A DNA stretch of 64,000 bases from an uncultured Bacteroidales bacterium (GTDB taxonomy: Bacteria; Bacteroidota; Bacteroidia; Bacteroidales; UBA932), in NCBI GenBank assembly GCA_900317845.1, contig ONII01000001.1, forward strand, positions 104,802 through 168,801, given 5' to 3'. The notes under the pieces were generated by a model that worked only from the letters and a program-made list of their open reading frames with translations, was not told the DNA's origin and did no database searches. The position numbers and the translations under genes were made by a program. Shown here piece by piece: positions 36,910 to 55,854 of this stretch. How positions within the stretch are numbered: the first letter of the stretch is position 1; the number at the start of each line of letters is the position of its first letter.

Positions 36910-36923
36910 TAGGAGGTAAAAGT

Positions 36924-37397: not shown

Positions 37398-37428
37398 GGG
37401 ACTTACATCGTCGTAAAGTATTTTCATT

Positions 37429-37456
37429 AAAAGCAGCTCTTCGGGGCTGCTTTTTT
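37429..37456 (+). terminator. Terminator after exbD
   Basis: AAAAGCAGC (37429-37437) pairs with GCTGCTTTT (37446-37454), then T-run. Confidence 0.9.
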
Positions 37457-37505
37457 GTGTCCCGTTTGGCTACTTTAGCGCCCCAATTTTTAACGCTAAA
37501 GTATC

Positions 37506-38027
37506 ATGGAAAACAATCAGAAAATGGGACGCAGCACCCGCAGAAAGCTGCAAAGCGTATTCATGCATCATGAGCTGGTTACCCTGGCCGTTTTTGCCAA
37601 TCAATGGATGGAAGCGGAGGAAATGCACTACACCGATGCGTATCGACGCGAAAGATGCATGGAAGTACTCCAAAAGTTTCTGGGAAGCAAGGCAGGTCCG
37701 GGACTGCTTCAGGAAAAGATGGAACATCACATGCACGGCATTCTCTCCCGGCTGCGGGAGGACTTTCCCACCCTCTCCTGGAAATCCATCCTGGTATTCT
37801 CTTATTCCGCTGCAGGTTTCACCAATGATTTTATCGCCAGGCTGCTGAACCTGCGCTGTCCGGCAGATGCCAGCCGCCTCAAAACCCGCCTGAGAGACCG
37901 CATCCAAGAATCTGACTCCCCTTATAAAAAAGAATACCTGGCACTCCTGCCCCGTAAGGGTTGCCGAGTGGGAGAAGAATTGCAATACCTGCAAGATCGG
38001 AGGTATCGGCAATTATGGAAACTGTGA
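37506..38027 (+). CDS. Hypothetical protein with degenerate HTH-like region
   Basis: 173 residues, soluble and helical. The C-terminal half has SWKSILVFSYSAAGFTNDFIARLLNL followed by SRLKTRLRDRIQ. This recalls the degenerate LuxR-like helix-turn-helix found at the end of some Bacteroidota helical proteins. No enzymatic motif was found. It stands alone between the ExbD terminator and lacI, and is convergent with lacI (4-base gap). A DNA-binding role is possible but uncertain. Confidence 0.65.
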   Translation: MENNQKMGRSTRRKLQSVFMHHELVTLAVFANQWMEAEEMHYTDAYRRERCMEVLQKFLGSKAGPGLLQEKMEHHMHGILSRLREDFPTLSWKSILVFSYSAAGFTNDFIARLLNLRCPADASRLKTRLRDRIQESDSPYKKEYLALLPRKGCRVGEELQYLQDRRYRQLWKL

Positions 38028-38031: not shown

Positions 38032-39042
38032 CTAACAGCTGTCCCGTACCACAAGGGTAGGTGGAATCAGTAACTGGCGGGGAGCCGGCTCCGGAAGAGA
38101 CCGCCTGCGGGCATCCATAATGGCAAAAAGGGTTTCCACCGCCTGACTGCCCGCCTCCCGCAAAGGCTGCTCCACGCGGGTAACAGCCGGATCCAGGAAA
38201 TCCAGGAACCCGTTATTATCGAAAGAAATGACGCCCACATCCCGGAGGGGTCGCAACTGAAGCTGGCGCAAAGCCTGGATGGTTCCCAGAAGGATGGTGG
38301 AGCTGAATGCAAAGATGGCATCGTAGGGGGGCTGAGAGGCGCTAAAAGCCTTCTGAGTCTCCCTGAAGCCATTATCCACCGAGAAAGCGTCCCCCACCAC
38401 GCTGCCGCTGGCGCCGGCCTTTTCCACGGCCGACAAAAAACCACGCGCGCGCTCCTGATTAGGCATGGAGGCCGGCACGCCCTGAATAGCGAGGATACGC
38501 CGGTAGCCTTTTTGCAGCAGATACTCCGTAGCCATGTAAGCTCCGGCGTAGTTGTCCGTGCACACATAGGAGAGTTTTGTCTCCCGGAAATAACGGTCCA
38601 GCAGCACCAAGGGAATCTTTCGGCCGATTTCCTCATGCAGGGCCGGAGAAGAAGATACCGGGATGCAGATGATGCCATCGACACTGCGACTCTGGAACAT
38701 GCGCAACGCTTCCCTCTCCTCCTGCTCGGACTCACCGGAGTCGGCCAGCAGCGTATGGTATCCGCGCGCGCCAAGCACTTCTATGACGATGGCAGACAAG
38801 GTTGCAAAGAATGGGTTCTCGATGCCCGGAACCAGCAGGCCGATGGTCTGGGATTTTTGGGTACGGAGCGACTGCGCCACCAGGTTGGGCCGATAGTTAC
38901 AGCGGTCGGCCTCCTGTGTAATGCGGTCGATGGCGGCCTGGCTGATGCGGTACTTCTGTGCCTTTCCGGAGAGCACACGGGAAACCGTGGTAGCAGAATA
39001 CCCGGTTTTCTCCGAAATGGTGAATATATTGTTCTTCTCCAT
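38032..39042 (-). CDS. LacI-family transcriptional regulator of the ribose-type operon
   Basis: 336 residues. The N-terminal HTH has FTISEKTGYSATTVSRVLSG and the hinge helix RPNLVAQSLRTQKSQTIG. The periplasmic-binding-like effector domain has IGLLVPGIENPFFATL, VDGIICIPV, IPLVLLDRY and VGVISFDN. It is divergent from the ribokinase operon, with a palindromic operator between them, so it very likely represses that operon until a ribose-derived ligand binds. Bacteroides thetaiotaomicron rus loci are not described with a LacI regulator to my knowledge. Its own -7 box is TATATTTG at 39063-39056. Confidence 0.9.
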   Translation of the reverse strand: MEKNNIFTISEKTGYSATTVSRVLSGKAQKYRISQAAIDRITQEADRCNYRPNLVAQSLRTQKSQTIGLLVPGIENPFFATLSAIVIEVLGARGYHTLLADSGESEQEEREALRMFQSRSVDGIICIPVSSSPALHEEIGRKIPLVLLDRYFRETKLSYVCTDNYAGAYMATEYLLQKGYRRILAIQGVPASMPNQERARGFLSAVEKAGASGSVVGDAFSVDNGFRETQKAFSASQPPYDAIFAFSSTILLGTIQALRQLQLRPLRDVGVISFDNNGFLDFLDPAVTRVEQPLREAGSQAVETLFAIMDARRRSLPEPAPRQLLIPPTLVVRDSC

Positions 39043-39055
39043 AAAAAATCTGGCA

Positions 39056-39063
39056 CAAATATA
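39056..39063 (-). promoter_or_regulatory. -7 box of lacI-type gene
   Basis: TATATTTG on the minus strand, 13 bases upstream of the ATG at 39042. Confidence 0.55.
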
Positions 39064-39115
39064 GAGAATTGTTCAATTTATTTCAAATAAAAGTCGAATA
39101 TTCAAATTTTTTTTC

Positions 39116-39123
39116 TAACTTTG
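39116..39123 (+). promoter_or_regulatory. -7 box of the ribokinase operon
   Basis: TAACTTTG. The start codon is 64 bases downstream, leaving room for an operator in the 5' leader. Confidence 0.6.
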
Positions 39124-39135
39124 CTCCTAGGAATA

Positions 39136-39151
39136 GCGCAATCGTTTGCGC
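39136..39151 (+). promoter_or_regulatory. LacI-family operator
   Basis: GCGCAATCGTTTGCGC is a palindrome in 14 of 16 positions with a central CG, the hallmark of LacI/PurR-type operators. It begins 12 bp after the -7 box, at about +5, so bound repressor would block initiation or early elongation. Confidence 0.75.
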
Positions 39152-39187
39152 AAACCATTCAAAACCGCTATTAATAACACTTGGCCT

Positions 39188-40093
39188 ATGAATAACAAGC
39201 GAATTCTGGTCATTGGCAGCAGTAACACGGATATGACTGCCAAAACACAGGAACTTCCCCGCCCGGGAGAAACCGTTTTGGGCGGCGTCTTCACCATGGG
39301 AGCCGGCGGCAAGGGTGCCAACCAGGCCGTGGCGGCACAACGTCTGGGCGGCAATGTCCAGTTTATCTGCAAAGTGGGACAGGACATGTTCGGAGACAAC
39401 GCCATCGAGCATTATAAAAAGGAAGGGCTCGACACCAGCGGCATCCTCCGCTCCCTCCTCCCCTCCGGCGTAGCGCTTATCTATGTAGACAGCCACGCCG
39501 AGAACTGTATCGTGGTAGCCTCCGGCGCCAATGGGGACTTTACGGAGGCCGATATCGAAGCTTCCAAGCAGGCTATCCTCAATTGCGATATTCTCCTGCT
39601 TCAGCTGGAAAGCCCCATCCCTACCGTCCTCAAGGCCGCCAAGATGGCCCACGAAGCCGGCGCCACCGTGGTGCTGAATCCGGCACCCGCCTGCGCGCTT
39701 CCGGAAGAGATCTTCCGCTATATCGACCTCTTTATTCCCAACGAGACCGAGCTGTCCACCTTCAGCGGGCTTCCCGTAACCGATAAGGAAACGGCCGAAG
39801 TTGCCGCCAAAGCCATGCAGCAGAAAGGCGTGGGCAAACTCATCGTCACCATGGGCAGCAAGGGCGCGCTCATCTGCGACGGCGGCCCTGCCACTTTCGT
39901 TCCCGCCCACAAGGTGAAGGCCGTGGACACCACCGCTGCCGGAGACACTTTCTGCGGCGCCCTGTGCGTAGCTGTCAGCGAAGGCACGAGCCTTAAGGAA
40001 GCCGTCGAGTTCGCCTGTGCGGCATCGGCCCTCACCGTCCAGAAGATGGGCGCACAGAATTCCATCCCGTTCAGAAAAGATATTAATATTTAA
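39188..40093 (+). CDS. rbsK: Ribokinase
   Basis: A 301-residue PfkB-family sugar kinase. MGAGGKGANQAVAAQRLGG (substrate site) and the C-terminal signature DTTAAGDTFCGAL with the catalytic aspartate are present. VLVIGSSNTDM and the general length fit ribokinase, which makes ribose 5-phosphate. The ATG at 39188 is used; an upstream frame extension covers the operator. It is the first gene of a nine-gene operon, which points to ribose as the final product of the outer enzymes. Confidence 0.9.
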   Translation: MNNKRILVIGSSNTDMTAKTQELPRPGETVLGGVFTMGAGGKGANQAVAAQRLGGNVQFICKVGQDMFGDNAIEHYKKEGLDTSGILRSLLPSGVALIYVDSHAENCIVVASGANGDFTEADIEASKQAILNCDILLLQLESPIPTVLKAAKMAHEAGATVVLNPAPACALPEEIFRYIDLFIPNETELSTFSGLPVTDKETAEVAAKAMQQKGVGKLIVTMGSKGALICDGGPATFVPAHKVKAVDTTAAGDTFCGALCVAVSEGTSLKEAVEFACAASALTVQKMGAQNSIPFRKDINI

Positions 40094-40104
40094 AGGATAA
40101 GACT

Positions 40105-41118
40105 ATGTTCATTGTAGGAAGTTACACTCTGGCAGTTGTATTCTGCTTCGTTACCATGCTTTGTTGGGGCTCCTGGGGCAACACCCAGAAACTGGCCGCC
40201 AAAAGTTGGCGTTATGAACTCTTCTACTGGGATTACGTCATCGGCATGGTGCTCTTCTCTCTCCTGCTGGCCTTTACCGCCGGCAGCATCGGCACTGAAG
40301 GACGTCCTTTCCTGCAGGATATCGCCCAGGCCGACTGGGCCAGCATCGGCTGGGTCCTGCTGGGCGCTGTCGTCTTCAACGTATCCAACATCCTGTTAAG
40401 CGCTTCTACTTCTATCGCGGGCCTGGCCGTGGCCTTCCCGCTGGGCGTAGGTATCGCGCTGGTAATGGGTGTGTTGAACAACCTGCTCCTGCATCCCGTA
40501 GAGGGACAGAATACCAAGCTGCTCTGGCTGGGCGTAGCGCTGGTGGTGGCGGCCGTCATCTGCAACGGCGTAGCCTCCGGCAAAGTGTCCAACGAGCAGC
40601 GTGACCCCAAGCAGAACCGCAAGGGTATCATCCTGGCCGTTCTCGCCGGTCTTATCATGTCCTTCTTCAGCGCTCTGGTATATAATGGTGTGGACCTCGC
40701 CGACTTCCGCCACCCGGCCGCCGGCAAGCTCACTCCCTACACCGCCATGGTCATTTTCGCCCTGGGCGTGTTCCTGAGCAACTTCATCGTGAACACCATC
40801 GTGATGAAGAAACCCTTCGTGGGAGAGCCTGTCACTTACAAGCAGTACTTCGCCGGCAACTTCAAAACCCATCTGGTGGGTATGCTGGGCGGTGCCATCT
40901 GGGCACTGGGTACTTCCCTCAACTACATCAGCGCCGGTGAGGCCGGTGCCGCCGTCTCCTACGCCCTGGGTCAGGGCGCTCCCATGATCGCCGCCATCTG
41001 GGGCGTGTTCATCTGGAAGGAATTCAAAGGCGCTCCCAAGCAGGTGTACGGCCTGCTGGCCCTCATGTTCGGCCTGTTCATCGCCGGTCTGGGCTGCGTA
41101 GTGATCGCCGGCATGTAA
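40105..41118 (+). CDS. GRP-type sugar permease (putative ribose transporter)
   Basis: 337 residues with ten membrane helices. The N-terminus MFIVGSYTLAVVFCFVTMLCWGSWGN and the segment SISAGEAGAAVSYALGQGAPMIAAIWGVFIWKEFKG (cited in part: GAAVSYALGQGAPMIAAIWG) fit the glucose/ribose-porter family of the drug/metabolite superfamily. Its place after ribokinase is like rusT in B. thetaiotaomicron ribose loci. It would bring ribose from the periplasm into the cytoplasm. Confidence 0.82.
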   Translation: MFIVGSYTLAVVFCFVTMLCWGSWGNTQKLAAKSWRYELFYWDYVIGMVLFSLLLAFTAGSIGTEGRPFLQDIAQADWASIGWVLLGAVVFNVSNILLSASTSIAGLAVAFPLGVGIALVMGVLNNLLLHPVEGQNTKLLWLGVALVVAAVICNGVASGKVSNEQRDPKQNRKGIILAVLAGLIMSFFSALVYNGVDLADFRHPAAGKLTPYTAMVIFALGVFLSNFIVNTIVMKKPFVGEPVTYKQYFAGNFKTHLVGMLGGAIWALGTSLNYISAGEAGAAVSYALGQGAPMIAAIWGVFIWKEFKGAPKQVYGLLALMFGLFIAGLGCVVIAGM

Positions 41119-41140
41119 TATAATTTAAGGTAAGCGCGCT

Positions 41141-44047
41141 ATGAATGCTTTGAAAAGATTTACGCTGGTTGCTGCACTCCTCCTGATAGGGTTGGGCGCC
41201 AATGCACAAAACAAAACAATATCCGGAACAGTTCGGGATGACCGGTCAGAACCGCTTCCCGGTGCCACATTGGTTGTAGCTGGAAGCAATGCCTACGCCA
41301 TTACAGATTCTAACGGCAAGTTCTCCCTCAGTGCCTCTCAAGGCCAGGAGATCACCGTCTCCTATTTAGGATTTGACGATTATGTCTTTACCGTTACAGG
41401 CACGTCCCAATACAACATTAACATGCGCCCGTCAGAGGCCACCATGCTCAATGAGTCTGTCGCCATCGGTTACGGCACAACTACCAAAAAGGAAGTGACC
41501 GGTTCGGTGACCAGCCTCCGCAGCGAAGATTTCGACAGGGGCGCTTATAACAGCCCCGCTGGCATGCTGCAGGGAAAAGTAGCCGGTCTGCAAATCACGA
41601 ATCCCAATGGCGGTGATCCCAACGGATCCTTCGAGATACTGCTCCGCGGTACCAACACATTGAGCGCCGGTCAGGGACCGCTGATTATCATCGACGGTGT
41701 AGTGGATGCCGACTTAAGCACCATCAACTTCCAGGAAGTGGAAACCATCGACGTGCTCAAGGATGGTTCCGCAGCTGCTATTTATGGTACTCGCGGCACC
41801 AATGGTGTGATTATCATCACCACCAAAAGGGCCCAATCCGGCCGCACCAGTGTGGAATATGACGGACAAGTATCTGTCCAGACGGTCCTGTCACGGGCCA
41901 AACCCATGAATGCCAAACAGTTCAGAGAAGCCGTAACGGCCTATGTCAATGGGGGTGAAGCGTATCTTTACGGCGGCGAGACAGACTGGTTCGAACAAAT
42001 CACCCGCACGCCCATCAGCCACAAGCACAGTCTGGCCATCTCCGGAGGATCGGAAAAGTTCAGTCACCGTACTGTCTTGAACATAGAACAAAACCAGGGT
42101 ATCTTGAAGAAAAACGATGTCAGCAAGTATCTCGTCAAAACGAATATCCACCAGGAAGCCCTGGAAGGCTGGCTCGTATTTGACTACAACCTGAGCTATA
42201 CCAAGCGTAAATATAACGGAACCCGCTCCGGTATCTTCCGTCAGGCTTTCTTCCATAATCCCACCGAATACGTCTACGATCCAAGCGATACGGAGAATGG
42301 CGGATACTTTACGGTAACGGCCATGGACTACTACAATCCAGTAGCGATGCTCAACGAGCGGAATGGAGAAACGGACGTCGACGTGATTGGAGCCAACGGA
42401 CGCGCTACCCTGAACATCAAACCCGTCAAGGGTCTCAAGTGGGACAATTTCATAAGCTATGGAATTACCCGGCGCGAAAGCCGTGATTATAAGACCCGGT
42501 ATTACCCGGGCGAAACTGGAATGATGGGGTCGGCCGAAATTGAGAATTCGATATCTACCGATCTCCAGTATGAGACAACGCTCAATTATAACAATAGTTT
42601 TGGCAATCACAACCTCCAGGCCATTTTGGGTTACACCTATCAGACGCGTGGCTACCGGGGTTCCTACATGTACAACTATAGTTATGACACAGACTTCTTC
42701 GGGACAGATAATATCGGTTCCGGCTACGCGTTGCAGGACGGAATGGCACAGATGAGTTCATCCCGTTCTTCCAGCAAATACGTCGCTTTCTTTGGTCGTG
42801 TAATGTATAATTATGCCGACAAATATCTGGCCTCTGTTTCTTTGAGAAGGGACGGATCTTCGCGATTCGGCGCCCAAAACAAATGGGGTTGGTTCCCGGC
42901 CGTGAGCCTGGGTTGGCGCATTACGCAGGAAAACTTCATGAAAGAGGTTACATGGCTGAACGAACTGAAGCTCCGTGCAGGTTACGGTGTCACCGGCAAC
43001 CAGGACTTCGATAACTACCGTTCCCTTTTCCTGATGTCCACCAATGGACACTATTACTCCAACGGCAGGTGGTACAACACCTACGTTCCGGCCAGCAATG
43101 CCAACCCGAACCTGGGATGGGAAAAGAAGTCAGAATTCAATGTGGGCGTGGACATCAGCGTCCTCGATGGCCGTTTAGGCGGAACCATCGACTATTATTA
43201 CCGCCTTACGACTGATCTGCTCTACGACTATGCGGTTCCTGTTCCTCCCTATGACTATAAGTCCTTCTTTACCAATGTAGGCTCTATCAGTAACAGCGGT
43301 ATCGAAGTTACCATCAACGCCATCCCGGTGAAAACCAGGAACTGGGAGTGGAACACCACATTCATTTTCTCCCGTAACTCCAATAAGCTCATCAAATTCA
43401 CCAACGAAGAGTTTCAGGGACAGGAATACAGAATTGGCTGGGTAAACACTCCGCTGGGTGTTTACAGCCAGCGTCTGATGGAAGGCGAGAGCCTGGGCAG
43501 TTTCTACGGTCCTATATATCAGGGCGTGGATGAAAAGACCGGCAATGCCATCGTTTCCACTGACGATGAAAACGAATGGGTGCGGCTGGGCAGTGCCTAT
43601 CCGGATTTCAGCCTCGGATGGAGCAACAGCCTGCGCTGGGGCAACCTGAGCTTAAGTGCTACGTTCCGGGCCTCCATCGGCGGAAAGGTGCTCAACCAGA
43701 TGCGTGGTGTTTATGAGAACATTACCAACATGGGTCTGCAAAACATTCAGGAATCCTGGCTGTATGACCAAAGTTATACCGGTGGCGTTGTGTATTCTTC
43801 CAAATATCTGGAAGATGCCACCTATTTGAAACTGGATAACATCTCCCTCACCTACAACATCCCTCTCAATACCAACTTCATCAAGGGACTCCGCGTATAT
43901 GCCACGGCACAGAACGTCTTTATTCTTACCGGATACACGGGTGTCGACCCTGAAGTTTCCCTGACCGGCCTGGCTCCCGGCATCGCTCCGCTAAGCTATT
44001 ACCCTCGTACCCGTACCTTCACCCTGGGAGCCTCGATAACCTTCTAA
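41141..44047 (+). CDS. SusC-like TonB-dependent outer-membrane transporter
   Basis: 968 residues. After the signal peptide (cut after ANA), a carboxypeptidase-like domain (ISGTVRDDRSEPLPGATLVVAGSN) and a plug with LQGKVAGLQITN, LIIIDGVVD and DVLKDGSAAAIYGTRGTNGVIIITT are followed by the 22-strand barrel, ending TFTLGASITF. It is paired with the SusD gene 12 bases downstream. The pair would import the oligomer or nucleoside-type ligand across the outer membrane using ExbB/D energy. Upstream there is no extra FecR/sigma pair; control appears to rest with the LacI regulator. Confidence 0.95.
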   Translation: MNALKRFTLVAALLLIGLGANAQNKTISGTVRDDRSEPLPGATLVVAGSNAYAITDSNGKFSLSASQGQEITVSYLGFDDYVFTVTGTSQYNINMRPSEATMLNESVAIGYGTTTKKEVTGSVTSLRSEDFDRGAYNSPAGMLQGKVAGLQITNPNGGDPNGSFEILLRGTNTLSAGQGPLIIIDGVVDADLSTINFQEVETIDVLKDGSAAAIYGTRGTNGVIIITTKRAQSGRTSVEYDGQVSVQTVLSRAKPMNAKQFREAVTAYVNGGEAYLYGGETDWFEQITRTPISHKHSLAISGGSEKFSHRTVLNIEQNQGILKKNDVSKYLVKTNIHQEALEGWLVFDYNLSYTKRKYNGTRSGIFRQAFFHNPTEYVYDPSDTENGGYFTVTAMDYYNPVAMLNERNGETDVDVIGANGRATLNIKPVKGLKWDNFISYGITRRESRDYKTRYYPGETGMMGSAEIENSISTDLQYETTLNYNNSFGNHNLQAILGYTYQTRGYRGSYMYNYSYDTDFFGTDNIGSGYALQDGMAQMSSSRSSSKYVAFFGRVMYNYADKYLASVSLRRDGSSRFGAQNKWGWFPAVSLGWRITQENFMKEVTWLNELKLRAGYGVTGNQDFDNYRSLFLMSTNGHYYSNGRWYNTYVPASNANPNLGWEKKSEFNVGVDISVLDGRLGGTIDYYYRLTTDLLYDYAVPVPPYDYKSFFTNVGSISNSGIEVTINAIPVKTRNWEWNTTFIFSRNSNKLIKFTNEEFQGQEYRIGWVNTPLGVYSQRLMEGESLGSFYGPIYQGVDEKTGNAIVSTDDENEWVRLGSAYPDFSLGWSNSLRWGNLSLSATFRASIGGKVLNQMRGVYENITNMGLQNIQESWLYDQSYTGGVVYSSKYLEDATYLKLDNISLTYNIPLNTNFIKGLRVYATAQNVFILTGYTGVDPEVSLTGLAPGIAPLSYYPRTRTFTLGASITF

Positions 44048-44059
44048 AATGTGACCGCC

Positions 44060-45640
44060 ATGAAAAAGTATATCTATATGCTTGGAATTGCAGCCTGCAT
44101 GTCGGCAGCCTGCACCAACCTGGACGAGACCATCTATTCCCAGTTACCCAAGGAGGAGTTTTTCAAGTCCGAAGCCCAACTGACCACTTACAGCGCACGT
44201 CCTTACACCTTGCTGCAAAACTGGGGAACGGAACAGAGCATGTGGACGCTCATCATGCAGTTGAGCAATGAGGTAGCCGTCCCTAAATCCTACAATGGCA
44301 GCTGGTCAGAACCCCGCTACCGGGAGATTCAGACCCACAAGATGCAAACCAACAACAAGCTCATCCGCACCGCCTGGGAGTTCTGCTTTAATGTAATCGC
44401 CGGATGTAACGACGTTATATATGAGGTGGAAAAATCTGGCGAAATGAATGCTGCCAAAGAAAAGATTGTGGCCGAAATGAAGGTCCTTCGCGCCTATTGC
44501 TACTTGCTGGCCATGGACTGCTGGGGAAATATCCCTTATTCTGTGGACAAGAAGCAGGAAGGCTATCCGGATGTCAAGGGCCGGGATTTCTTCTTTGACT
44601 TTATCGAGAAAGAAATCAAAGATAATATGGGCAAGTTGGATGCCGCTCCCAGCGCAAGCAATTATGGTCGGCTTACCCAGGATGCCGCACACTTCCTGCT
44701 TGCGAAGCTGTACCTGAACGCCAAGGTTTGGGTCGGGAAAGAAATGTGGGCCGAAGCTGCCGCCCAATGCAAAGCCATCATGGACGCAGGTCACTTCCAG
44801 CTCACCAAAACTTACAAAGAGAATTTCGAAGTACACAATGAGAATTCTACCGAAGCCATTTTTGCCATCCCCTATAGCACCGGCATAACGACATCGGACC
44901 GCAACGCCTTCTATCCCTTCTGTCTTACCCTTAACGCCGACTGTGAGAAAATCTGGAACGTCAGCGGTACTTGGAACGGAGCCTTTATCGGCCAACCTGA
45001 CTTCATGGCCACTTACGATGCTGCCGATACCCGGAAAAAAGACTCATGGCTTTATGGTCAGGTTTACGATTTGAACGGAAACAAGTGGCGTATCTCTATC
45101 GGCGTGAACAAGAAAGGAGAGCCTGTTTACAGGGACTATATTCTGGAAGACATCAATATCGATCCCTCCAAATTCTCCTATGGTCTGTCCCGTACCGACG
45201 GTGCCCGCATCATCAAGTGGACTTATCAGAACGACGGTAGCCTCACCAGTTATCAGGTGAGCATGGAAAACGATTTTATCCTTTTCCGTTATGCCGATGT
45301 TGTCCTCATGTACGTAGAAGCTTTGGTGCGCCAAGGTCTGATAGGAACGGCCGCAGGCGTCCAGGAGTTCAAGGACATCCGCACACGTGCAGGTCTGTCT
45401 CCGATAACGGCAGCCAACCTTACCCTGGATAATCTCTTGATTGAACGTCAACATGAGCTGTGCATGGAAGGCTGGAGCCGTCAGGACCTGATCCGCTTCG
45501 GCAAATACTTGGACGCCTGGTGGTGCAAGGAAGCCGGTCCCGAAAGAGAGCTTCTGCTTCCCATCCCCGAAGAAATGAGAGGCGCCAATCCCAAACTTCA
45601 ACAGAATCCCGGTTATTCTAGCGCATCAGACGTACAATGA
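44060..45640 (+). CDS. SusD-like surface ligand-binding lipoprotein
   Basis: 526 residues. The signal MKKYIYMLGIAACMSAAC ends at lipobox Cys18; the ATG at 44060 is used rather than GTG at 44051. TPR-like helices follow (KMQTNNKLIRTAWEF, KMKVLRAYCYLL-type). The C-terminal block has FRYADVVLMYVEAL, LLIERQHELCMEGW and QDLIRFGKYL, as in RagB/SusD proteins. It captures substrate and forms a lid over SusC. The following gene starts at its stop (4-base overlap). Confidence 0.95.
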   Translation: MKKYIYMLGIAACMSAACTNLDETIYSQLPKEEFFKSEAQLTTYSARPYTLLQNWGTEQSMWTLIMQLSNEVAVPKSYNGSWSEPRYREIQTHKMQTNNKLIRTAWEFCFNVIAGCNDVIYEVEKSGEMNAAKEKIVAEMKVLRAYCYLLAMDCWGNIPYSVDKKQEGYPDVKGRDFFFDFIEKEIKDNMGKLDAAPSASNYGRLTQDAAHFLLAKLYLNAKVWVGKEMWAEAAAQCKAIMDAGHFQLTKTYKENFEVHNENSTEAIFAIPYSTGITTSDRNAFYPFCLTLNADCEKIWNVSGTWNGAFIGQPDFMATYDAADTRKKDSWLYGQVYDLNGNKWRISIGVNKKGEPVYRDYILEDINIDPSKFSYGLSRTDGARIIKWTYQNDGSLTSYQVSMENDFILFRYADVVLMYVEALVRQGLIGTAAGVQEFKDIRTRAGLSPITAANLTLDNLLIERQHELCMEGWSRQDLIRFGKYLDAWWCKEAGPERELLLPIPEEMRGANPKLQQNPGYSSASDVQ

Positions 45641-47403
45641 AAAAGTATCTTTTCATAACCCTTTTTCTCCTGCTGCTGGCCTCCTGCGCCCAAAAGCCGC
45701 TGGAGATTACCCGCACGCAGCTCAAGGACAAGATTGCCGGCGCCTGGCTGGGCCAGATGGTAGGTAATATCTATGGACTTGAATACGAGAACAAGTTTGT
45801 CGATGAACCCGGCGAAGGTCCCTTCGTCTTCAACAAGGCCATGACCAAGATGGCCGCCGTGGACGGTGCTTTCTCCGACGATGACACCGATGTGGAATAC
45901 CTCTATCTTCTGATGATGGAGAAGTATGGCATCGACATCACTTACCAGCAGGTGAAGGAAGGCTGGATGTACCATATCCGTGACCGGGTATGGCTGGCCA
46001 ACCGCGCCGCCCTGGGCCTGATGCACTATGGTTTCACGCCGCCTTACACCGGCAAGAAGGAATACAACCCGCACTGGTTCCAGATCGACCCCCAGCTCAT
46101 CAACGAGATTTGGGCCTACACGGCTCCCGGCATGCCCAAGTATGCTGCCGCCATCTCCGACTGGGCTGCCCGCATCACCTCCGACGACTGGGCTGTCTCC
46201 CCTACCGTGGTATATGGCGCCATGTACTCCGAGGCCTTCTTCGAGAGCGACATTCCCACACTCATCCGCCACGCCAAGGAATATCTCCCCCAGGGAGACC
46301 GTTTCCGCCATATCATCGACGAATGCCTGGACCTGTGGCAGAAGAACCCCGACGACTGGAAGGCTTCCCGTAAGGTGATTGCCGATGAGCTCTATGTAAA
46401 CGAGCCCGACATCACCAAGAGCATCTGGAATGCCGACCTCAACGGCGCGATGGGGATCCTATCCCTGCTGTACGGCGACGGAGACATTGAAAAGACCCTC
46501 CTCATTGGCTGCGCCATGGGCTTCGACTGCGACAACCAGACCGCCACGATGTGCGGCCTCCTGGGCGTCATCAACGGCGTAGGCGGCGTTCCGCTGGACC
46601 GCGCCATGCCTTTCGAGCACTGGACCAAGCCCTTCAACGACCGCTACATCAACGTGACGCGTTTCGATATGCCCGACGCCTCCATCGAAGATATCATCGA
46701 GCGTACCGTAGTGCTGGCCGAAAAGATTATCCTGGCCCGTGGCGGTTCCGTCCGGGAAGAGAACGGCGAAAAGATCTATACCATCAATCCCAAGGCCACC
46801 TTCAAACCGGCCCAGGAACCCGCCGCCACCTTCACCCTGCCGGAAAAGCACGGGCGCAACCTGGCCCGCGAAGCCAATGAAATCCTGGCCCTCACCCGGG
46901 AGACCGACCGTGCCACCCTGGATTCCTGCTGGCTCACCATTCCGGTTTCCTATCGTGCCTATACCGTCGATGTCATCAACGACGGTGTCGTAGGCGGCCC
47001 CGGAGCAGCCTTCTATTCCCTGGGCAGCAAGTCCAACGCGCCCAAGCAGGACTACTTCGGCTATCGCTGGGACAAGCCCGTCACTACCGATATGGTATCG
47101 TTCCACTATGGACCGCTGGAGGAATTCGGCGGCTGGTACAGCAACCTCCACGTGGAATATCTGGACGAAAACGGTAAATGGCAGCCCGTGCAGGACGCCA
47201 CCGTTACCCCGGCTTGGCCGTATTGCGACGAAGTCTTCTTCCAGCCGCACAACGGCGAATTCATCTTCACCTTCCCTAAGGTGACGACAACGGCCATCCG
47301 CGTCATCGGCGACGATGCCGTGCTCATCCACTGGAACAAGTACACCAAGAACGTATCGGCCTTCATCTCTATTACTGAACTGGAAGTTTATGAAGCGCAA
47401 TAG
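45637..47403 (+). CDS. ADP-ribosylglycohydrolase-family lipoprotein 1
   Basis: 588 residues with lipoprotein signal MKKYLFITLFLLLLASC (Cys17). The ARH helical fold is shown by KDKIAGAWLGQMVG, the first metal motif SDDDTDVEYL (D81-D85) and the second FDCDNQTATMCGLLG (D297, D299, T302). These are the acidic clusters that bind two Mg2+ ions in ARH enzymes. From about 400 to 588 there is an extra beta-rich, discoidin-like domain (SFHYGPLEEFGGWY, VRVIGDD-type strand). Family members remove ADP-ribose or act on related ribosides; in rus loci a homologue is termed rusGH. It is the first of three tandem ARH genes and the least like the other two. Confidence 0.85.
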   Translation: MKKYLFITLFLLLLASCAQKPLEITRTQLKDKIAGAWLGQMVGNIYGLEYENKFVDEPGEGPFVFNKAMTKMAAVDGAFSDDDTDVEYLYLLMMEKYGIDITYQQVKEGWMYHIRDRVWLANRAALGLMHYGFTPPYTGKKEYNPHWFQIDPQLINEIWAYTAPGMPKYAAAISDWAARITSDDWAVSPTVVYGAMYSEAFFESDIPTLIRHAKEYLPQGDRFRHIIDECLDLWQKNPDDWKASRKVIADELYVNEPDITKSIWNADLNGAMGILSLLYGDGDIEKTLLIGCAMGFDCDNQTATMCGLLGVINGVGGVPLDRAMPFEHWTKPFNDRYINVTRFDMPDASIEDIIERTVVLAEKIILARGGSVREENGEKIYTINPKATFKPAQEPAATFTLPEKHGRNLAREANEILALTRETDRATLDSCWLTIPVSYRAYTVDVINDGVVGGPGAAFYSLGSKSNAPKQDYFGYRWDKPVTTDMVSFHYGPLEEFGGWYSNLHVEYLDENGKWQPVQDATVTPAWPYCDEVFFQPHNGEFIFTFPKVTTTAIRVIGDDAVLIHWNKYTKNVSAFISITELEVYEAQ

Positions 47404-48997
47404 CTTTTGCATACTGCTGGTGGCGCTGCTCACAGCCTGCGCCGCTCCCAAGGCACCGGAGTCGGTGACCCTGTCCAAGGATGCCCTTATGGACAAGATT
47501 ATGGGCGGCTGGGCTGGTCAGACCATCGGCGTGGTGTATGGCGCCCCCACGGAATTCAAGTTCTGCGGCACCATCATCCCCGAAGAGATTCCCATCGGCT
47601 GGGGAGAAGGCTATGTGAAGCACTGGTGGGACCGCAAACCCGGCCTGTTTGACGACGTTTACAACGACCTCACCTTTGCCGAAGCCTTCGAACAGCTGGG
47701 GTTGGACGCCACGGCCGAGCAACTGGCCCTGCGTTTTGCCTACGCACCTTACCACCTGGCCCACGCCAATCAGGCAGGCCGGTACAATGTGCGCCAGGGC
47801 ATCATGCCGCCCGCATCCGGTAACTGGATCAACAACCCGCACGCCGATGACCTGGACTTCCAGATCGAGGCCGATTTCGTGGGTCTGATGACCCCCGGTA
47901 TGGTACCGGAAGCCCTGGATATCGCCTCCCGCGTAGGTCATATCATGAACAGCGGAGACGGTTTCTACGGCGGTGCCTTCGTGGCCGGCCTGTACAGTGC
48001 CGCCTTCGTGGAGAATGACCCCGTCCGCATCGTGGACATGGCCCTGGAGGCCATTCCGCAGGAGAGCACCTTCTGGCAGTGCCTCAACGACGTACGCGTA
48101 TGGCACAAGCAATATCCTGACTGGAAAGACTGCTGGTTCCAGGTGCTCAAGAAATGGGGCCTGGACACCGGCTGCCCCAAGGGCGTAAGCCTGAGCTTTG
48201 ACATCGACGCAAAACTGAACAGCGCCTATGTGGCGATGGGCCTGCTTTACGGCGGCGGTGACTTTGGCAAATCCCTGGAAATCTCCACCCGTTGCGGACA
48301 GGATTCCGACTGCAATCCGGCCACCGTGGGTGGCGTGCTGGGCGTAGTGCTGGGTCTGGAGAACATGCCGGCCTTCTGGAAAGACCCGGTGATGGAAATC
48401 TGGAACCTGGATTTCGAAGGCACCGACGTGTCCCTGGCCAAGGGTAGCCAATACTCCTTCAACCACGCGCTCCAGCTCATTGCCAAGAATGGCGGAAACG
48501 TCACCGAAGACAGCGTCACCATTCCCGTGAGCCGGCCTGAAGTGCTTCCTCTGGAACGGAACTTCGTGGACACCTATCCCCTGATGCGGGACCAGAAGGA
48601 CCACTGGATGTCCGACGTCTATGAGTTTGACTTCTCCGGTAACGGCTTTGTCATCTGGGGCAATCTGGTGTGCCTGCGGGGCATTACGGCCGATTACGCC
48701 GCGCGTGTATCCAAGAAGCACGTGGGCAGCGAAGTCTTCGCCCTGGCCGAAGAGAATGACCCGTATGTGGCCGAAATCGAGGTGTGGATTGACGGAGAAC
48801 TGGACCAGGTTTCCCTCCTGCCCATGAAAGGCACCTCCCGCAAACTGGAACCCGCCTGGAAATACCAGATGCAGGAAGGCCGTCACCACGTGAAGATGGT
48901 ATGGCGCAATCCCCTGCCGGACACTTACTTGCTGCGTATCAACGCCATCCAGTACTATAGCCATAAACAGAATACGGACACTTATTACCATAATTAG
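47390..48997 (+). CDS. ADP-ribosylglycohydrolase-family lipoprotein 2
   Basis: 535 residues. Lipoprotein signal MKRNSFCILLVALLTAC. The ARH start MDKIMGGWAGQTIGVVYGAPTEF is followed by the first acidic motif FDDVYNDLTF (D88, D89, D93), differing from the usual SDDDT type. The second motif is GQDSDCNPATVGGVLG (D305, D307, N309). A C-terminal beta-sandwich (about 390-535) ends in YYSHKQNTDTYYHN. The ATG at 47390 overlaps the upstream gene by 14 bases; the next gene starts on the base after its stop. It is closely related to ARH 3. Confidence 0.85.
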   Translation: MKRNSFCILLVALLTACAAPKAPESVTLSKDALMDKIMGGWAGQTIGVVYGAPTEFKFCGTIIPEEIPIGWGEGYVKHWWDRKPGLFDDVYNDLTFAEAFEQLGLDATAEQLALRFAYAPYHLAHANQAGRYNVRQGIMPPASGNWINNPHADDLDFQIEADFVGLMTPGMVPEALDIASRVGHIMNSGDGFYGGAFVAGLYSAAFVENDPVRIVDMALEAIPQESTFWQCLNDVRVWHKQYPDWKDCWFQVLKKWGLDTGCPKGVSLSFDIDAKLNSAYVAMGLLYGGGDFGKSLEISTRCGQDSDCNPATVGGVLGVVLGLENMPAFWKDPVMEIWNLDFEGTDVSLAKGSQYSFNHALQLIAKNGGNVTEDSVTIPVSRPEVLPLERNFVDTYPLMRDQKDHWMSDVYEFDFSGNGFVIWGNLVCLRGITADYAARVSKKHVGSEVFALAEENDPYVAEIEVWIDGELDQVSLLPMKGTSRKLEPAWKYQMQEGRHHVKMVWRNPLPDTYLLRINAIQYYSHKQNTDTYYHN

Positions 48998-50497
48998 ATG
49001 AAGAAACTGCTTATACCGCTTGCGATGCTGCTGGTCGCCTGTTCCCAGGCGCCCAAGGTTCCCTATGGGGAAACTGTGCGGATGGACCAGGCTACCCTGA
49101 TGGACAAGATCCGGGGCGGCTGGTACGGCCAGACCATCGGCTGCACTTACGGCGGTCCCACGGAGTTCAAGTACAAGGGCGGGCTCATCATGGATGAGAT
49201 TCCCATCCCCTGGTACGACGACTACATCTATGACACCTACATCGAGGATCCCGGCCTGTACGACGATGTCTATATGGACCTCACCTTCCTGGAGACAATG
49301 CTCAAAGAGGGTCTGGACGCGCCTATCGACGCTTATGCCAACGCTTTTGCCTATGCCGACTACAAGCTTTGGCACGCCAACCAGGCCGCCCGGTACAACA
49401 TTCTGAACGGCCGCGGCGCTCCGGAAAGCGGACATTGGAAATATAATCCCCATGCCGATGACATCGACTTCCAAATCGAGGCCGACTTCATCGGTATGCT
49501 CTATCCCGGACAGGTAAACAAGGCCAGCGTACTGAGTGACCGCATCGGCCACATCATGAACTATGGCGACGGCTGGTACGGAGGCGTCTATATCGGCGCC
49601 ATGTACTGCCTGGCCTATGTGTGCCAGGACATCCCGACCATCGTCACCGAAGCTTTGAAGACCATTCCGGAGGGCACCAAGTTCCATAGCACCATTGCCG
49701 ATGTCATCAAATACTGGAAGCAGTATCCCGATGATTGGAAGCAGTGCTGGTTCGAGGTGACCAACCGCCACGCCAACGACGTAGGCTGCCCGGAAGGCGT
49801 CTGGAACGGCTTCAACATCGACGCCACCATCAACAGCGCCTTCGTGGTCATCGGCCTGCTATATGGCGAAGGAGATTTCTATAAAACGATGGACATTTCC
49901 ACCCGCTGCGGCAATGACTCCGACTGTAACCCGGCATCGGCCGCCGGCATCCTGGGTGTGATGTACGGCTACAGCGCCATCCCCGAAGAATGGAAGAAGG
50001 GTGCCGAGCGCATCAAGGACATCCCCTTCCCTTACACGTCCCTTTCCCTGGAACAAGTTTGCAAGGCCAATTACGATTTGTTAATTTCTTGCAACGAAAG
50101 CAGTGAAAACTGCATCTTATTTACTGTAGAGACGCCTGAGACCGTCCGCTATGAACAATGCTTCGAAGGCATCAAACCTGTAGAAAAACGTGTCCTCAAA
50201 AAGGCATTCACCACCTCGGTGGACCTTCCTTTCCAGGGTAACGGCATTGTAGTGGAAGGAAGCGTCCGCAAAACTGGCCACGCCGATGACAGCTATGTAG
50301 CAGATGTCACGGCCCTCCTGGACGGAGAAGAGATTGAACACTTTACTATGCCGATTGATTATATCAAGCGGAAGTATGAGATCTTTAGCACCTACTGCTT
50401 TGGCAGTGGGCAGCATGTGCTTACCCTCCGCCTGAACAATCCTCACCCAGATTATGAACTGTATGCCTCAGAAATGGTTGTGTATGATTCAGAGTAA
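48998..50497 (+). CDS. ADP-ribosylglycohydrolase-family lipoprotein 3
   Basis: 499 residues, lipoprotein signal MKKLLIPLAMLLVAC. Motifs LYDDVYMDLTF (D89, D90, D94) and GNDSDCNPASAAGILG (D307, D309, N311) match ARH 2. HADDIDFQIEADFIGM and HIMNYGDGWYGG are also shared with it, so the two arose by duplication. The C-terminal part (about 360-499) is a beta-sandwich. It begins directly after the stop of ARH 2. The three lipoproteins probably process different ribosides or the same compound stepwise in the periplasm or at the surface (inference). Confidence 0.85.
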   Translation: MKKLLIPLAMLLVACSQAPKVPYGETVRMDQATLMDKIRGGWYGQTIGCTYGGPTEFKYKGGLIMDEIPIPWYDDYIYDTYIEDPGLYDDVYMDLTFLETMLKEGLDAPIDAYANAFAYADYKLWHANQAARYNILNGRGAPESGHWKYNPHADDIDFQIEADFIGMLYPGQVNKASVLSDRIGHIMNYGDGWYGGVYIGAMYCLAYVCQDIPTIVTEALKTIPEGTKFHSTIADVIKYWKQYPDDWKQCWFEVTNRHANDVGCPEGVWNGFNIDATINSAFVVIGLLYGEGDFYKTMDISTRCGNDSDCNPASAAGILGVMYGYSAIPEEWKKGAERIKDIPFPYTSLSLEQVCKANYDLLISCNESSENCILFTVETPETVRYEQCFEGIKPVEKRVLKKAFTTSVDLPFQGNGIVVEGSVRKTGHADDSYVADVTALLDGEEIEHFTMPIDYIKRKYEIFSTYCFGSGQHVLTLRLNNPHPDYELYASEMVVYDSE

Positions 50498-52043
50498 TTT
50501 CATTAGCTTGATTTGCATCTTTGCTACGCTGTTTTCTTCCAGCGGTTGCACCAGTGCAAAGGAGAATGCTACCGATAAAAAACCGTCTCAAGAAACGGAA
50601 GTCCCCGAAGAGGAGCAAAAACCCGGGGATAATACGCCTAGTGATCCCCAGCCGGAAGTACATGAGCTGTATCTTCGGGATCTGGTGCTTGAGAGTACAA
50701 TACTGGATATGGACATCCGCTATTCCGTCCTGCTCCCGCGTGATTATTACGAAAAAACCGATCAGCGTTACGCCGTAGTCTATATGCTGCATGGCTATGG
50801 AGACAACCAGAACTCCTGGAACGGAGAGTGGCTTCACGCCCGGGAACGTATTACTGATTTGGAGGATGCCGGCTTGGAAAAGATGATCTATGTCTATCCC
50901 ATGGGGTTCCAGAGTTATTACGTAAATCGCTATGACGGGTCCTTCAACTACATGGACATGTTTGTCCAGGAGTTTGTTCCCCTTATCGACTCCAGTTTCC
51001 GAACCATTGCGGACAAGCAGCATCGCTCCATAACCGGTTACTCCATGGGTGGATTCGGCGCTTATGTCCTGGCAGCCAAACACCCGGAAGTATTCATGTG
51101 CAGCGCTCCCCTTTCCATGTCGTTCCGCACGGACAAGCAGTATATGACGGAATCGGCCAGCGGATGGAATAGCCAATGGGGCACTAACTTCGGCGGAAAA
51201 GGAGAGAAAGGAGAAGGCCGGCTCACAGATTACTACAAGGCGCATTGTCCTTATTATGTATTTAATGACGAGAACCGTCAGACGTTGGAAAGCGTGAAAT
51301 GGTATTTCACCTGTGGAGACGACGAAGAGCAGCTTCTCATCGCCAACGATTCACTGCATGTGATCCTGCGAGACCGCAATTTTGCTCATGAGTTCCGCGT
51401 AGACAATGGCGCCCACACTTCCACTTACTGGACCAACGCCCTAAATGAAGTCCTCAGCTGGTTCTCCTTCTATATGAGCGGCGGTGAAAAGTGGCCCGGA
51501 CGCAATATAAAAGAACCCCATGTCCCGGAAATCAGCTTCGATGCAAACGGGGCTTACAAGTCTGCAAGCTTTAACAATAACGGCACATTGGTCCTTGTCG
51601 CGTTCCATCAGATGGATCGCTCCGACCAAGTGCTGGCCGAGTTAAGCCGGGTTTCAGGTAATTACGCTCTCCTGCCCTGCGACCTGGATGTGAGAAGCCT
51701 GTCCGAGTGGAAGGAATACTGGTCTTCCCAATATGAATGCGCCAAAACGCATATTGTTGCCCTTGGAGGCGCCGGAGCTGCTGCTATGGGCCTGCAGGAT
51801 CAGGTGAAACAGATTGTTTTCTACGATGCCGCCCTTGGCGAGGATGTTTCCCCTGTCAAGTCTTGCAAATATATCATCCTCAACACCGATACCGGTGTCA
51901 ACTACCGTGATATGGGAGCATTATACACCGCTTGCAAGCGTAGTGACTGCTCCTTTGAATACCGGGTGGCAAAGGGTACGGATGACCCCTTCAAAGATAT
52001 GCTCCGAATTATTGAAACATATAAATCTTTATTTAACTTTTAA
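50484..52043 (+). CDS. Esterase lipoprotein (esterase D/feruloyl esterase-like) with degenerate second half
   Basis: 519 residues starting MIQSNFISLICIFATLFSSSGC, with Cys22 as the lipid anchor; the ATG at 50484 overlaps the ARH 3 stop by 14 bases. A charged linker (23-58) precedes the PF00756-type hydrolase: YAVVYMLHGYGDNQNSW, the nucleophile elbow GYSMGGFGAY (S187), FTCGDDE with the acid, and DNGAHTSTYW with the histidine. Residues about 345-519 look like a second, partial hydrolase-like fold with GGAGAAAMGL in place of the nucleophile elbow. It could remove acyl groups from ribosides before the ARH enzymes act (inference). Confidence 0.82.
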   Translation: MIQSNFISLICIFATLFSSSGCTSAKENATDKKPSQETEVPEEEQKPGDNTPSDPQPEVHELYLRDLVLESTILDMDIRYSVLLPRDYYEKTDQRYAVVYMLHGYGDNQNSWNGEWLHARERITDLEDAGLEKMIYVYPMGFQSYYVNRYDGSFNYMDMFVQEFVPLIDSSFRTIADKQHRSITGYSMGGFGAYVLAAKHPEVFMCSAPLSMSFRTDKQYMTESASGWNSQWGTNFGGKGEKGEGRLTDYYKAHCPYYVFNDENRQTLESVKWYFTCGDDEEQLLIANDSLHVILRDRNFAHEFRVDNGAHTSTYWTNALNEVLSWFSFYMSGGEKWPGRNIKEPHVPEISFDANGAYKSASFNNNGTLVLVAFHQMDRSDQVLAELSRVSGNYALLPCDLDVRSLSEWKEYWSSQYECAKTHIVALGGAGAAAMGLQDQVKQIVFYDAALGEDVSPVKSCKYIILNTDTGVNYRDMGALYTACKRSDCSFEYRVAKGTDDPFKDMLRIIETYKSLFNF

Positions 52044-52065
52044 CCAATGTTTAACTTTTAACCAA
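52032..52065 (+). repeat. 16-bp tandem repeat between esterase and lipoprotein genes
   Basis: TTTAACTTTTAACCAA occurs at 52032-52047 (over the esterase stop) and again at 52050-52065. A recent slippage duplication is likely. Confidence 0.75.
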
Positions 52066-52074
52066 ATTAGTGTT

Positions 52075-52971
52075 ATGAAAAAAGTATTTGCTTTTCTCTT
52101 GGCGATGCTCGTAGTGATGAGTTTCGTCGGTTGTAAAAAGACGGAACCTTCCGTAAAGCCTCAGGACAAAGAACAAGAAGGCGAAAAAGAAGGTGAAAAA
52201 GAAGGTGAGAAAGAAGGTGAAGGTGAAGGTGAAACCGTAGAGTATGAGACTGTGGAAGTGGTGATGAAGACCGCTTACATTGAAGCTATCTGCGACTGGC
52301 CTGAGGAAAATGACTGGAAGGCCACCAGAATCGGTGAAACCCGTTGGGATCTCAACTACGATGAGTTTGGTAATATGGTGAGCGCCATCGTGAAGGATGA
52401 TCCGGAAAAGAGTTACCTCTTCGAATACGATGAAGATTTCACCGAGTGTGAAATCACCACACAAGCCGATCCTGAGATTGTCATTTACGATCTTGAACTC
52501 AACGAAGACGGTCTCTGCACCAAGTTCACTAACAACACCAAAGATCCCGCCGAGGTTTGGACTTACACTTATGATGCCGACGGCTTCCAGCTTTCCGCAT
52601 CTAAGGGTGGCGAAGTCAAAACCGAATACAAGATCAACAACAAGAATATCTTCACCTGGAGTCGTGACGGAAGTCGTCTCAAAGAGCACAAGTATAATGA
52701 CAAAGCCAACGTGGCCGACATTCATACCTCCTATTCTGAGGATGCTGGTCTGAGCCGCTTCCTCTATGAAACCGGTCTGTTCGGCCGTAGCTCCGCCAAT
52801 GTCTGCACCGAGGCTAAGTGGCAGGACCGTGATTCCAAGGCCACTTATGAATATGAGTTCGATGAGGCCACCGGTGGCATTACCAAGGAAATCAAGTATT
52901 ACGCCGGAGATTACGACTTCGACGTCTGCTTCGCAGTTGCCAAGAAGTCCATCAAGAGAGTGAAGGAGTAG
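52075..52971 (+). CDS. Acidic lipoprotein with YD/DUF4595-like repeats
   Basis: 298 residues. Signal MKKVFAFLLAMLVVMSFVGC with Cys20. It is followed by a low-complexity run of EGEK repeats (about 35-53) coded by 12-bp tandem units at 52177-52233. The mature domain has repeating strand pairs such as WDLNYDEFGNMVSAIV, WTYTYDADGFQLSA and YEYEFDEATGGITKE, like YD-type or DUF4595 lipoproteins. Its function is unknown. A 31-base gap to the esterase gene suggests it is the last gene of the ribokinase operon. Confidence 0.75.
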   Translation: MKKVFAFLLAMLVVMSFVGCKKTEPSVKPQDKEQEGEKEGEKEGEKEGEGEGETVEYETVEVVMKTAYIEAICDWPEENDWKATRIGETRWDLNYDEFGNMVSAIVKDDPEKSYLFEYDEDFTECEITTQADPEIVIYDLELNEDGLCTKFTNNTKDPAEVWTYTYDADGFQLSASKGGEVKTEYKINNKNIFTWSRDGSRLKEHKYNDKANVADIHTSYSEDAGLSRFLYETGLFGRSSANVCTEAKWQDRDSKATYEYEFDEATGGITKEIKYYAGDYDFDVCFAVAKKSIKRVKE

Positions 52972-52991: not shown

Positions 52992-53021
52992 AAACGGCCG
53001 GTGATGTACCGGCCGTTTTTG
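52992..53021 (+). terminator. Terminator of the ribokinase operon
   Basis: AAACGGCCGGT (52992-53002) pairs with ACCGGCCGTTT (53008-53018), followed by T-run. Confidence 0.92.
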
Positions 53022-54491: not shown

Positions 54492-54502
54492 CCCAAGATA
54501 CT

Positions 54503-55851: not shown

Positions 55852-55854
55852 AGT

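Follow-up and report, generated by a model that had tools for sequence, protein, structure and literature searches.

A rus-type locus with three ADP-ribosylglycohydrolase-type lipoproteins in an uncultured Bacteroidales bacterium, putatively serving an ester-decorated riboside

A candidate riboside-utilisation locus

The window considered here is a stretch of 64,000 nucleotides from an uncultured Bacteroidales bacterium (assembly GCA_900317845.1, contig ONII01000001.1), and its subject is an operon encoding a ribokinase (RbsK), a permease, a SusC/SusD pair, three ADP-ribosylglycohydrolase (ARH) lipoproteins, an esterase and a further lipoprotein, with a divergent lacI gene in front of it. We favour, with modest confidence, the view that this is a rus-type locus, built like a polysaccharide utilisation locus (PUL), for a non-nucleoside, ester-decorated riboside, and that the ARHs are extracytoplasmic ribofuranosidases. 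Of the features by which a rus-type locus is recognised here, a ribokinase of the equivalog type, a DMT/GRP-type permease in the operon and a SusC/SusD pair are present, whereas a nucleoside hydrolase and a RusR-type regulator are absent. An earlier note on this DNA had already proposed a rus-like ribose system, and this part is supported by the ribokinase score, the linkage of permease, ribokinase and ARH in other families and the nucleoside hydrolases of sister loci. Its two further claims, that the ARH gene is tripled and that an esterase is added, do not hold: the three ARHs are paralogues of long standing that fall in separate clades, and triple-ARH loci of other organisms also include the esterase.

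According to the mechanism we propose, SusC and SusD would capture and import a ribose compound, from which the three ARH lipoproteins, as Mg-dependent (probably alpha-) ribofuranosidases of differing specificities, would free ribose while the esterase would take off an acyl group. The permease would then carry ribose over the inner membrane, the ribokinase would convert it to ribose-5-phosphate, and LacI, at an operator in the promoter, would hold the operon off until ribose or a derivative binds. We infer the reaction, the linkage cut, free ribose as the product and the periplasmic site. Direct cleavage of ribofuranosyl bonds by the ARHs appears the simplest solution, because the downstream route needs free ribose, the core genes include no ADP-ribose-processing enzyme and the genome has no match to the nucleoside hydrolase family. 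The gene content and its co-conservation, the kinase family, the fold and metal-site Asp pairs of the ARHs and a conserved operator-like site were all obtained by computation.

Ribokinase, permease and SusC/SusD

The kinase passes the D-ribose equivalog model TIGR02152 (Table 1) as well as the cut-off of a second ribokinase model, and it scores far below what the remaining PfkB models listed require. Four PfkB genes are found in the genome of the window (an assembly of 2.41 Mb, 97.75% complete), and only that of the operon is near ribokinase, the other three being far from it. Concerning the permease, its best Pfam match is the ureide family PF07168. This match would suit a locus devoted to another pentofuranose (one derived from arabinofuranose or apiofuranose, for instance), in which a kinase resembling ribokinase had changed its specificity; an esterase nearest to feruloyl esterases and the ARH2-like gene near GH127 and GH43 in the PUL of locus L053 (L, G and f numbers are our own handles for loci, genomes and families) would suit it as well. 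However, the kinase lies well above the ribokinase cut-off and far under those of the other PfkB models, and the kinase-permease pair is common to nucleoside-hydrolase loci, which would release ribose, and we consider a different pentofuranose quite improbable.

The identity of SusC to that of the window is 48-87% in 29 triple-ARH loci, has a median of 44% (23-65%) where one or two ARHs are present (16 loci) and falls to 23-31% in 13 nucleoside-hydrolase-only loci, these three counts not being deduplicated; it is 22-67% in 12 loci, some of them cut, that were scored with neither ARH nor nucleoside hydrolase. Since SusC is closely alike in the triple loci and different in the nucleoside-hydrolase-only loci, the simplest reading of these comparisons is that SusC and SusD would belong to the substrate of the triple-ARH locus.

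Three old ARH paralogues

These three genes are the only PF03747 members in the genome of the window. A recent tripling of one ARH was considered and rejected: orthologues in the closest relatives (L035, L036 and L079, for example) are 82-92% identical, versus 25-42% among the paralogues of the window, where ARH1 is 25-27% identical to ARH2 and ARH3, and ARH2 and ARH3 share 42%. Orthologue identity is lower, 57-78%, for some genes of G083, G118 and L087. A tree was built by a quick method after the ARH rows had been reduced from 159 to 125 by dropping those outside 400-720 aa (four fused frames included) and those identical beyond residue 60. It places ARH1 in a clade of 29 rows (Shimodaira-Hasegawa-like approximate likelihood ratio test, SH-aLRT, 97), ARH2 in one of 28 rows (100) and ARH3 in one of 33 rows (100). 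These clades contain largely the same genomes; that of ARH3 also takes one gene, from L052, whose locus has no other ARHs.

ARH1 and ARH2 are fused in one frame of about 1173-1193 aa in L039:5575-9096 (minus strand), L106, L117 and L118, an arrangement consistent with a common substrate for the two enzymes.

The AlphaFold2 model of ARH1 (predicted local distance difference test, pLDDT, 79.9; predicted template-modelling score, pTM, 0.78) was compared with solved structures by Foldseek, which matched its catalytic domain to ARH3-type structures (TMt up to 0.73) and its remainder to the CBM32 type. For the ARH3 of the window (pLDDT 84.3, pTM 0.84) the catalytic domain likewise matched ARH-type structures, with TMt up to 0.76 (up to 0.75 for ARH3 structures). 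Residues D89, D90, D307 and D309 are invariant in the ARH2/3 type (17 rows), as are D81-D83 together with D297 and D299 in ARH1 (12 rows). The D89/D90 pair (weakly, at 9 bits) and the D307/D309 pair of the ARH2/3 type align with the metal-site Asp pairs of MJ1187-/DraG-type proteins. An expression for the two Asp-pair motifs found both in 121 of the 125 ARH rows, and the remaining four retain both pairs by eye. The family score and the paired metal-binding Asp of PF03747 are therefore present, while its two Thr ligands of Mg are not; ARH1 has Asn at the position of Thr317.

In human ARH3, as described in the accessible text of PMC8141533, Asp residues hold two Mg ions, and Asp77 and Asp314 contact the 2'' and 3'' hydroxyls of ribose. 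Because the Asp pairs of the ARH2/3 type correspond to these, the ribose-reading half of the site seems, from the alignment, to be kept. The same text reports that human ARH3 cleaves serine-linked ADP-ribose and poly(ADP-ribose) (PMC8141533). This activity, the matching fold and Asp pairs and the very name of the ARH family, given for ADP-ribosyl hydrolysis, would agree with a system for scavenging ADP-ribose, where the ARHs strip it from proteins, poly(ADP-ribose) or NAD and other enzymes recover the ribose. However, no core gene encodes a Nudix enzyme, phosphatase, nucleotidase or nucleoside hydrolase (Nudix enzymes and nucleotidases were not searched for elsewhere in the genome), and NAD or ADP-ribose is disfavoured as a substrate because freeing ribose from ADP-ribose would require enzymes that the core genes do not include. 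Moreover, PF01156 has no match in the genome, the C-terminal domains of the ARHs look carbohydrate-binding, and neither the esterase nor the citrate-type transporter described below would have an obvious role. We therefore regard ADP-ribose scavenging as unlikely, and keep to ribofuranosidases as the preferred function of the trio.

Concerning their location, the leaders of all three ARHs of the window are lipoprotein-like, with no acidic run after the Cys. Lipoproteins without such a run generally stay on the periplasmic side, and this export rule suggests that the ARHs would face the periplasm.

An ARH2-like gene is also found in another PUL (L053:10419-16479), beside GH127, GH43 and esterase-like genes. 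From this setting, ARHs may also serve arabinofuranose-type substrates.

Distribution of the locus and its modules

ARH2 was matched in 26 of the 149 genomes of the window's family, its own included. Besides that of the window, seven genomes of the family (G051, G113, G091, G124, G015, G118 and G083) carry the trio together with SusC, SusD, esterase, lipoprotein and permease; ARH1 and ARH2 form one fused frame in G118, and in G015 a phenylalanyl-tRNA synthetase gene, not rbsK, adjoins the permease. A compact unit of SusC, SusD, RbsK, ARH and permease is found in L041-L043, L045, L046 and L076 with a divergent protein of about 510 aa, and in L044 with LacI. Further members of the family have an ARH without the permease.

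Scanning named genomes with the permease alignment gave at least 80 loci, many from rumen, omasum or abomasum Bacteroidales and some with Alistipes, Cryptobacteroides or Paludibacter in their titles. Loci L034-L053, L064-L157 and L196-L244 were pooled with the window and identical permeases collapsed, leaving 139 distinct permease loci. RbsK is present in 109 of these, any ARH in 60, a nucleoside hydrolase in 38 and the trio in 32 (window included), counts that are lower bounds because loci cut at contig ends were counted. For example, L210 was scored without RbsK although its upstream piece, L236, has one; permeases of 300 aa or less were excluded from the permease loci, and L236 was for this reason not counted with L210. 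Because the same gene set recurs across so many genomes, the operon is not a chance assembly.

In a further, related family, f3 (60 of 118 genomes; 20 of the places listed were fetched), the commonest order is the divergent protein of about 510 aa followed by RbsK, ARH, nucleoside hydrolase and permease. An ARH lies near RbsK and/or the permease in 15 of these 20 loci and not in the other five; a two-kinase order was not found in any of the 20. From these gene orders, the permease and the ribokinase seem to form a core to which modules are joined: SusC/SusD, a nucleoside hydrolase, one ARH alone, or all three ARHs together with an esterase.

The nucleoside hydrolase deserves particular attention. 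The earlier note remarked that the operon lacks one, and this absence extends to the whole assembly, in which PF01156 has no match. PNP_UDP_1 gave five matches in the same genome, one of them partial. In sister genomes a nucleoside hydrolase gene stands just upstream of lacI or rbsK (G051, by Pfam; G113, G091 and G124, by BLAST), and the loci in which it adjoins the operon are L034-L037 and L086. A supposed regulator of about 350 aa (RegX) is the nucleoside hydrolase gene read on its opposite strand, and was removed from the later reference sets. The neighbourhood of the nucleoside hydrolase in these close relatives, its place next to the RbsK, ARH and permease genes of other families and its presence in the B. 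thetaiotaomicron locus, as listed in the accessible part of PMC10434189, would all be expected if nucleosides or RNA fragments were scavenged as by B. thetaiotaomicron rus, with the ARHs replacing the nucleoside hydrolase. However, ARH and nucleoside hydrolase are adjacent in many loci (L065, L250 and L251 among them), a co-occurrence showing that the ARH does not just replace the other enzyme; the SusC of nucleoside-hydrolase-only loci is also of a different type. Nucleoside scavenging by this locus is, in our judgement, very unlikely. Many permease-ribokinase loci are without a nucleoside hydrolase, and we regard it accordingly as an optional module; its absence is, however, why we call the locus rus-type, not rus.

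Three further observations were made. In L067, L068 and L069, from another family of the class, an ARH1-like gene of about 450 aa follows RbsK and permease, beside a relative, of about 500 aa, of the protein of about 510 aa. One ARH, a ribokinase, a permease and five nucleoside-hydrolase-like genes form a single run in L200:2959-14031. The family of the divergent protein of about 510 aa (L041:8344-9900, L065:9259-10794, L236:3401-4948) has at most TPR matches in Pfam, and this protein may be a RusR-type regulator.

The triple-ARH locus and citrate-type transporters

The permease was also searched for in 393 genomes of the order, 52 of which matched, and 40 of the 71 places listed were fetched. 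The trio occurs in nine of these 40 loci, from seven families (f78 twice, f126, f131, f119, f144, f186 twice and f93), and all nine share one order: the divergent protein of about 510 aa, then RbsK, SusC, SusD, ARH1, ARH2, ARH3, two successive esterases, permease, a gene resembling a lipoprotein (the only one scanned, in L210, is DUF4595-like) and an anion transporter. The transporter is L210-like (PF00939, DASS) in seven of them and L221-like (PF03600, CitMHS) in two; the named Bacteroidales genome of L156 also carries CitMHS, and citrate lyase genes (CitE-type and CitF) then follow in L156 and L214.

Among the pooled permease loci, a citrate-type transporter (E <= 1e-30) is linked to 10 of the 32 triple loci versus none of the 107 non-triple ones (Fisher p = 1.2e-7, with no correction for common descent; in every part of the ARH tree nine of these ten loci group as a single clade). 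None was found in the 20 fetched f3 loci, and a looser search gave remote DASS matches in two non-triple loci, L105 and L109 (24 and 30% identity). Many of the 22 triple loci without the transporter end before that point. The presence of two transporter families in one position points to function rather than mere inheritance. Because of these linked transporters and of citrate lyase, the acyl group released in the wider family would probably be an acid of the citrate type, and would be imported as well. It is possible to go farther and to hypothesise that the ARHs are secreted ribofuranosidases, not ADP-ribosyl hydrolases, that the trio dismantles an undescribed riboside esterified with a citrate-type acid, and that the esterase or esterases, the DASS/CitMHS transporter and citrate lyase handle the acid; taken as a whole, we hold this proposal to be doubtful.

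Several observations weigh against our interpretation. The ribofuranosidase activity of this ARH type is a prediction from sequences and structural models. Searches of solved structures by sequence gave no match for the ARH1 or ARH2 of the window or for the ARH1 profile, and the ARH2/3 profile matched solved structures only at E 4.7e-5 (four weak chains); the CBM36-like match of the window ARH3 is also weak (best E 8.4e-4, TMt 0.47). The ARH2/3 type loses two Thr metal ligands, the position of Thr76 being Tyr or Phe and that of Thr317 Cys (Ser in three of the rows seen). ARH1 is without a lipobox in several distant loci, and the lipoprotein trait is thus not constant. Some loci scored as non-triple have a SusC up to 65-67% identical to that of the window, truncation of these loci accounting for this at least in part. 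Concerning the acid, no linked transporter was found in the window or in L034-L040, the seven relatives from its family for which downstream DNA was available, and the sole DASS gene elsewhere in the genome of the window shares just 28% identity with the linked transporters, which speaks against a role for citrate in this organism. Lastly, the literature search named no compound joining ribose and a citrate-type ester.

Operon layout and LacI regulation

The gene order given by the earlier note (divergent lacI, then rbsK, GRP permease, SusC, SusD, three ARH lipoproteins, esterase and acidic lipoprotein) was confirmed, all ten positions and families being in agreement (Table 1). The tight spacing that it described was also found, with gaps of 11, 22, 12, -4, -14, 0, -14 and 31 bases between the nine operon genes, as was its strong terminator: the 96-nt stretch folds at -31.4 kcal/mol versus a shuffle mean of -21.8, and none of 200 shuffles was equal or better. 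The closest solved chain to the esterase is ferulic acid esterase 7xrt (124.2 bits). A PF15283-type lipoprotein, likewise below the cut-off, is present at the equivalent place in L210.

Table 1. Positions of the predicted features of the operon and its control region in the window
Feature	Position	Strand	Evidence
LacI-family regulator, divergent from the operon	38032..39042	-	PF13377 84.3 bits; PF00356 26.7 (cut-off 27)
Promoter-like box TAACTTTG	39116..39123	+	fits the presumed Bacteroidota -7 box consensus TAnnTTTG
LacI operator candidate AGCGCAATCGTTTGCGCA, 18 bases, between promoter-like box and rbsK	39135..39152		17/18 to TGCGCAAWCGWTTGCGCA
Ribokinase RbsK, likely ATG at 39188	39188..40093	+	TIGR02152 364.6 bits (cut-off 299.65); PfkB 243.1 bits
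Inner-membrane permease, ureide-permease/GRP/DMT group; ribose permease candidate	40105..41118	+	PF07168 82.7 bits, PF07857, PF06800 31.4 (cut-off 26.3), all over cut-off
SusC-type TonB-dependent transporter	41141..44047	+	TIGR04056 724 bits (cut-off 368.25)
SusD-type lipoprotein, ATG 44060 (listed open reading frame: GTG 44051)	44060..45640	+	PF07980 90.2 bits
ARH1, ADP-ribosylglycohydrolase-fold lipoprotein, C-terminal CBM32-like domain	45637..47403	+	PF03747 99.5 bits (cut-off 26.2)
ARH2, ADP-ribosylglycohydrolase-type lipoprotein	47390..48997	+	PF03747 120.5 bits (cut-off 26.2); separate tree clade
ARH3, ADP-ribosylglycohydrolase-fold lipoprotein, C-terminal beta-sandwich (CBM36-like, weak)	48998..50497	+	PF03747 132.9 bits (cut-off 26.2)
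Feruloyl-esterase-like lipoprotein, GYSMG serine motif	50484..52043	+	PF00756 81.2 bits
Acidic DUF4595-like lipoprotein, last gene of the operon	52075..52971	+	PF15283 30.0 bits, below cut-off 34.2
Intrinsic terminator, 12-pair hairpin (52992-53018) and T run	52992..53021	+	z = -3.33

Concerning regulation, the best NCBIfam matches of LacI are RbsR-type and fructose-responsive models, every one of them below its cut-off. Between lacI and rbsK lies TAACTTTG, a candidate Bacteroidota -7 box. Directly past it, in the position expected for repression, sits the operator candidate AGCGCAATCGTTTGCGCA, whose match to the consensus TGCGCAAWCGWTTGCGCA was equalled by none of 200 shuffles. That consensus is matched at 15/18 or better in 20 of 28 lacI/rbsK intergenic rows, each match unequalled in 200 dinucleotide shuffles; the count is partly circular, because the consensus was built from palindromes in four of these rows, the window being outside those four, and the rows include one duplicate (L132 = L196) and the near-identical pair L082 and L083. 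In the eight rows that fail, LacI is 40-46% identical to that of the window, yet in seven rows that pass it is 39-47% identical. We infer both the repression and its effector, LacI presumably repressing the operon until ribose or a derivative binds.

Judged from their translations, the flanking genes appear to be an ExbB/ExbD-like set upstream (35072-38027) and, downstream (53088-57666), asparaginyl-tRNA synthetase-, uridine kinase- and TonB-like genes.

Significance and comparison with known systems

What was loosely labelled rus-like becomes a defined and recurring locus type, made of RbsK, permease, SusC/SusD, ARH1-ARH2-ARH3, esterase and lipoprotein, that spans the family of the window, seven further families of the order and genomes titled Alistipes and Paludibacter. 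The new element is the constant arrangement around the trio, which in all nine triple loci fetched from other families is followed by a citrate/dicarboxylate transporter belonging to one of two families. Should the ARHs prove to be ribofuranosidases, a large family annotated for protein de-ADP-ribosylation would gain a nutritional branch, and anaerobic habitats would hold a ribose-containing, probably acylated nutrient, for the tracing of which the link with citrate transporters offers a concrete handle. No recognisable account of the triple-ARH locus was found in the literature on ARH-bearing sugar loci or rus, a weak absence as subscription literature lay mostly outside the search.

Glowacki et al. 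reportedly described, in 2020, rus loci diversified across Bacteroidetes. The rus paper is cited in the accessible parts of PMC8503645 and PMC11697453. The same kind of partial text places the Rus PUL of B. thetaiotaomicron at BT2803-2809, with RusT as a putative ribose transporter (PMC12596196), and lists in the locus a ribokinase, a TonB receptor, SusD, a DUF4969 protein, a nucleoside hydrolase and a DMT permease (PMC10434189). Compared with rus as known from such published descriptions, the window shares a ribokinase, SusC, SusD, an inner-membrane permease of the DMT type and a dedicated regulator. It differs in having LacI in place of a RusR-type regulator, one ribokinase, three ARHs, an esterase and a DUF4595-like lipoprotein, in a genome without a nucleoside hydrolase match. 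In the B. thetaiotaomicron locus, compared by the annotation accessible in PMC10434189, the protein between SusD and the nucleoside hydrolase is DUF4969, not an ARH. The genus Bacteroides is in no title among the 80 nearest named loci listed.

The compact single-ARH loci (L041-L046, L065 and L250) share the families of kinase, permease and ARH with the window, but they have one ARH, no esterase and, except for L044, the divergent protein of about 510 aa in place of LacI; in L065 and L250 a nucleoside hydrolase is present and SusC/SusD are absent. Compared with the PF03747 superfamily (ARH1, ARH3 and DraG), the ARHs of the window have the same family score, fold and paired metal-site Asp. Unlike them, they are predicted to be secreted, with C-terminal CBM-like domains, two Thr ligands are replaced in the ARH2/3 type, and their genes lie within a sugar locus, not in a setting of protein ADP-ribosylation control.

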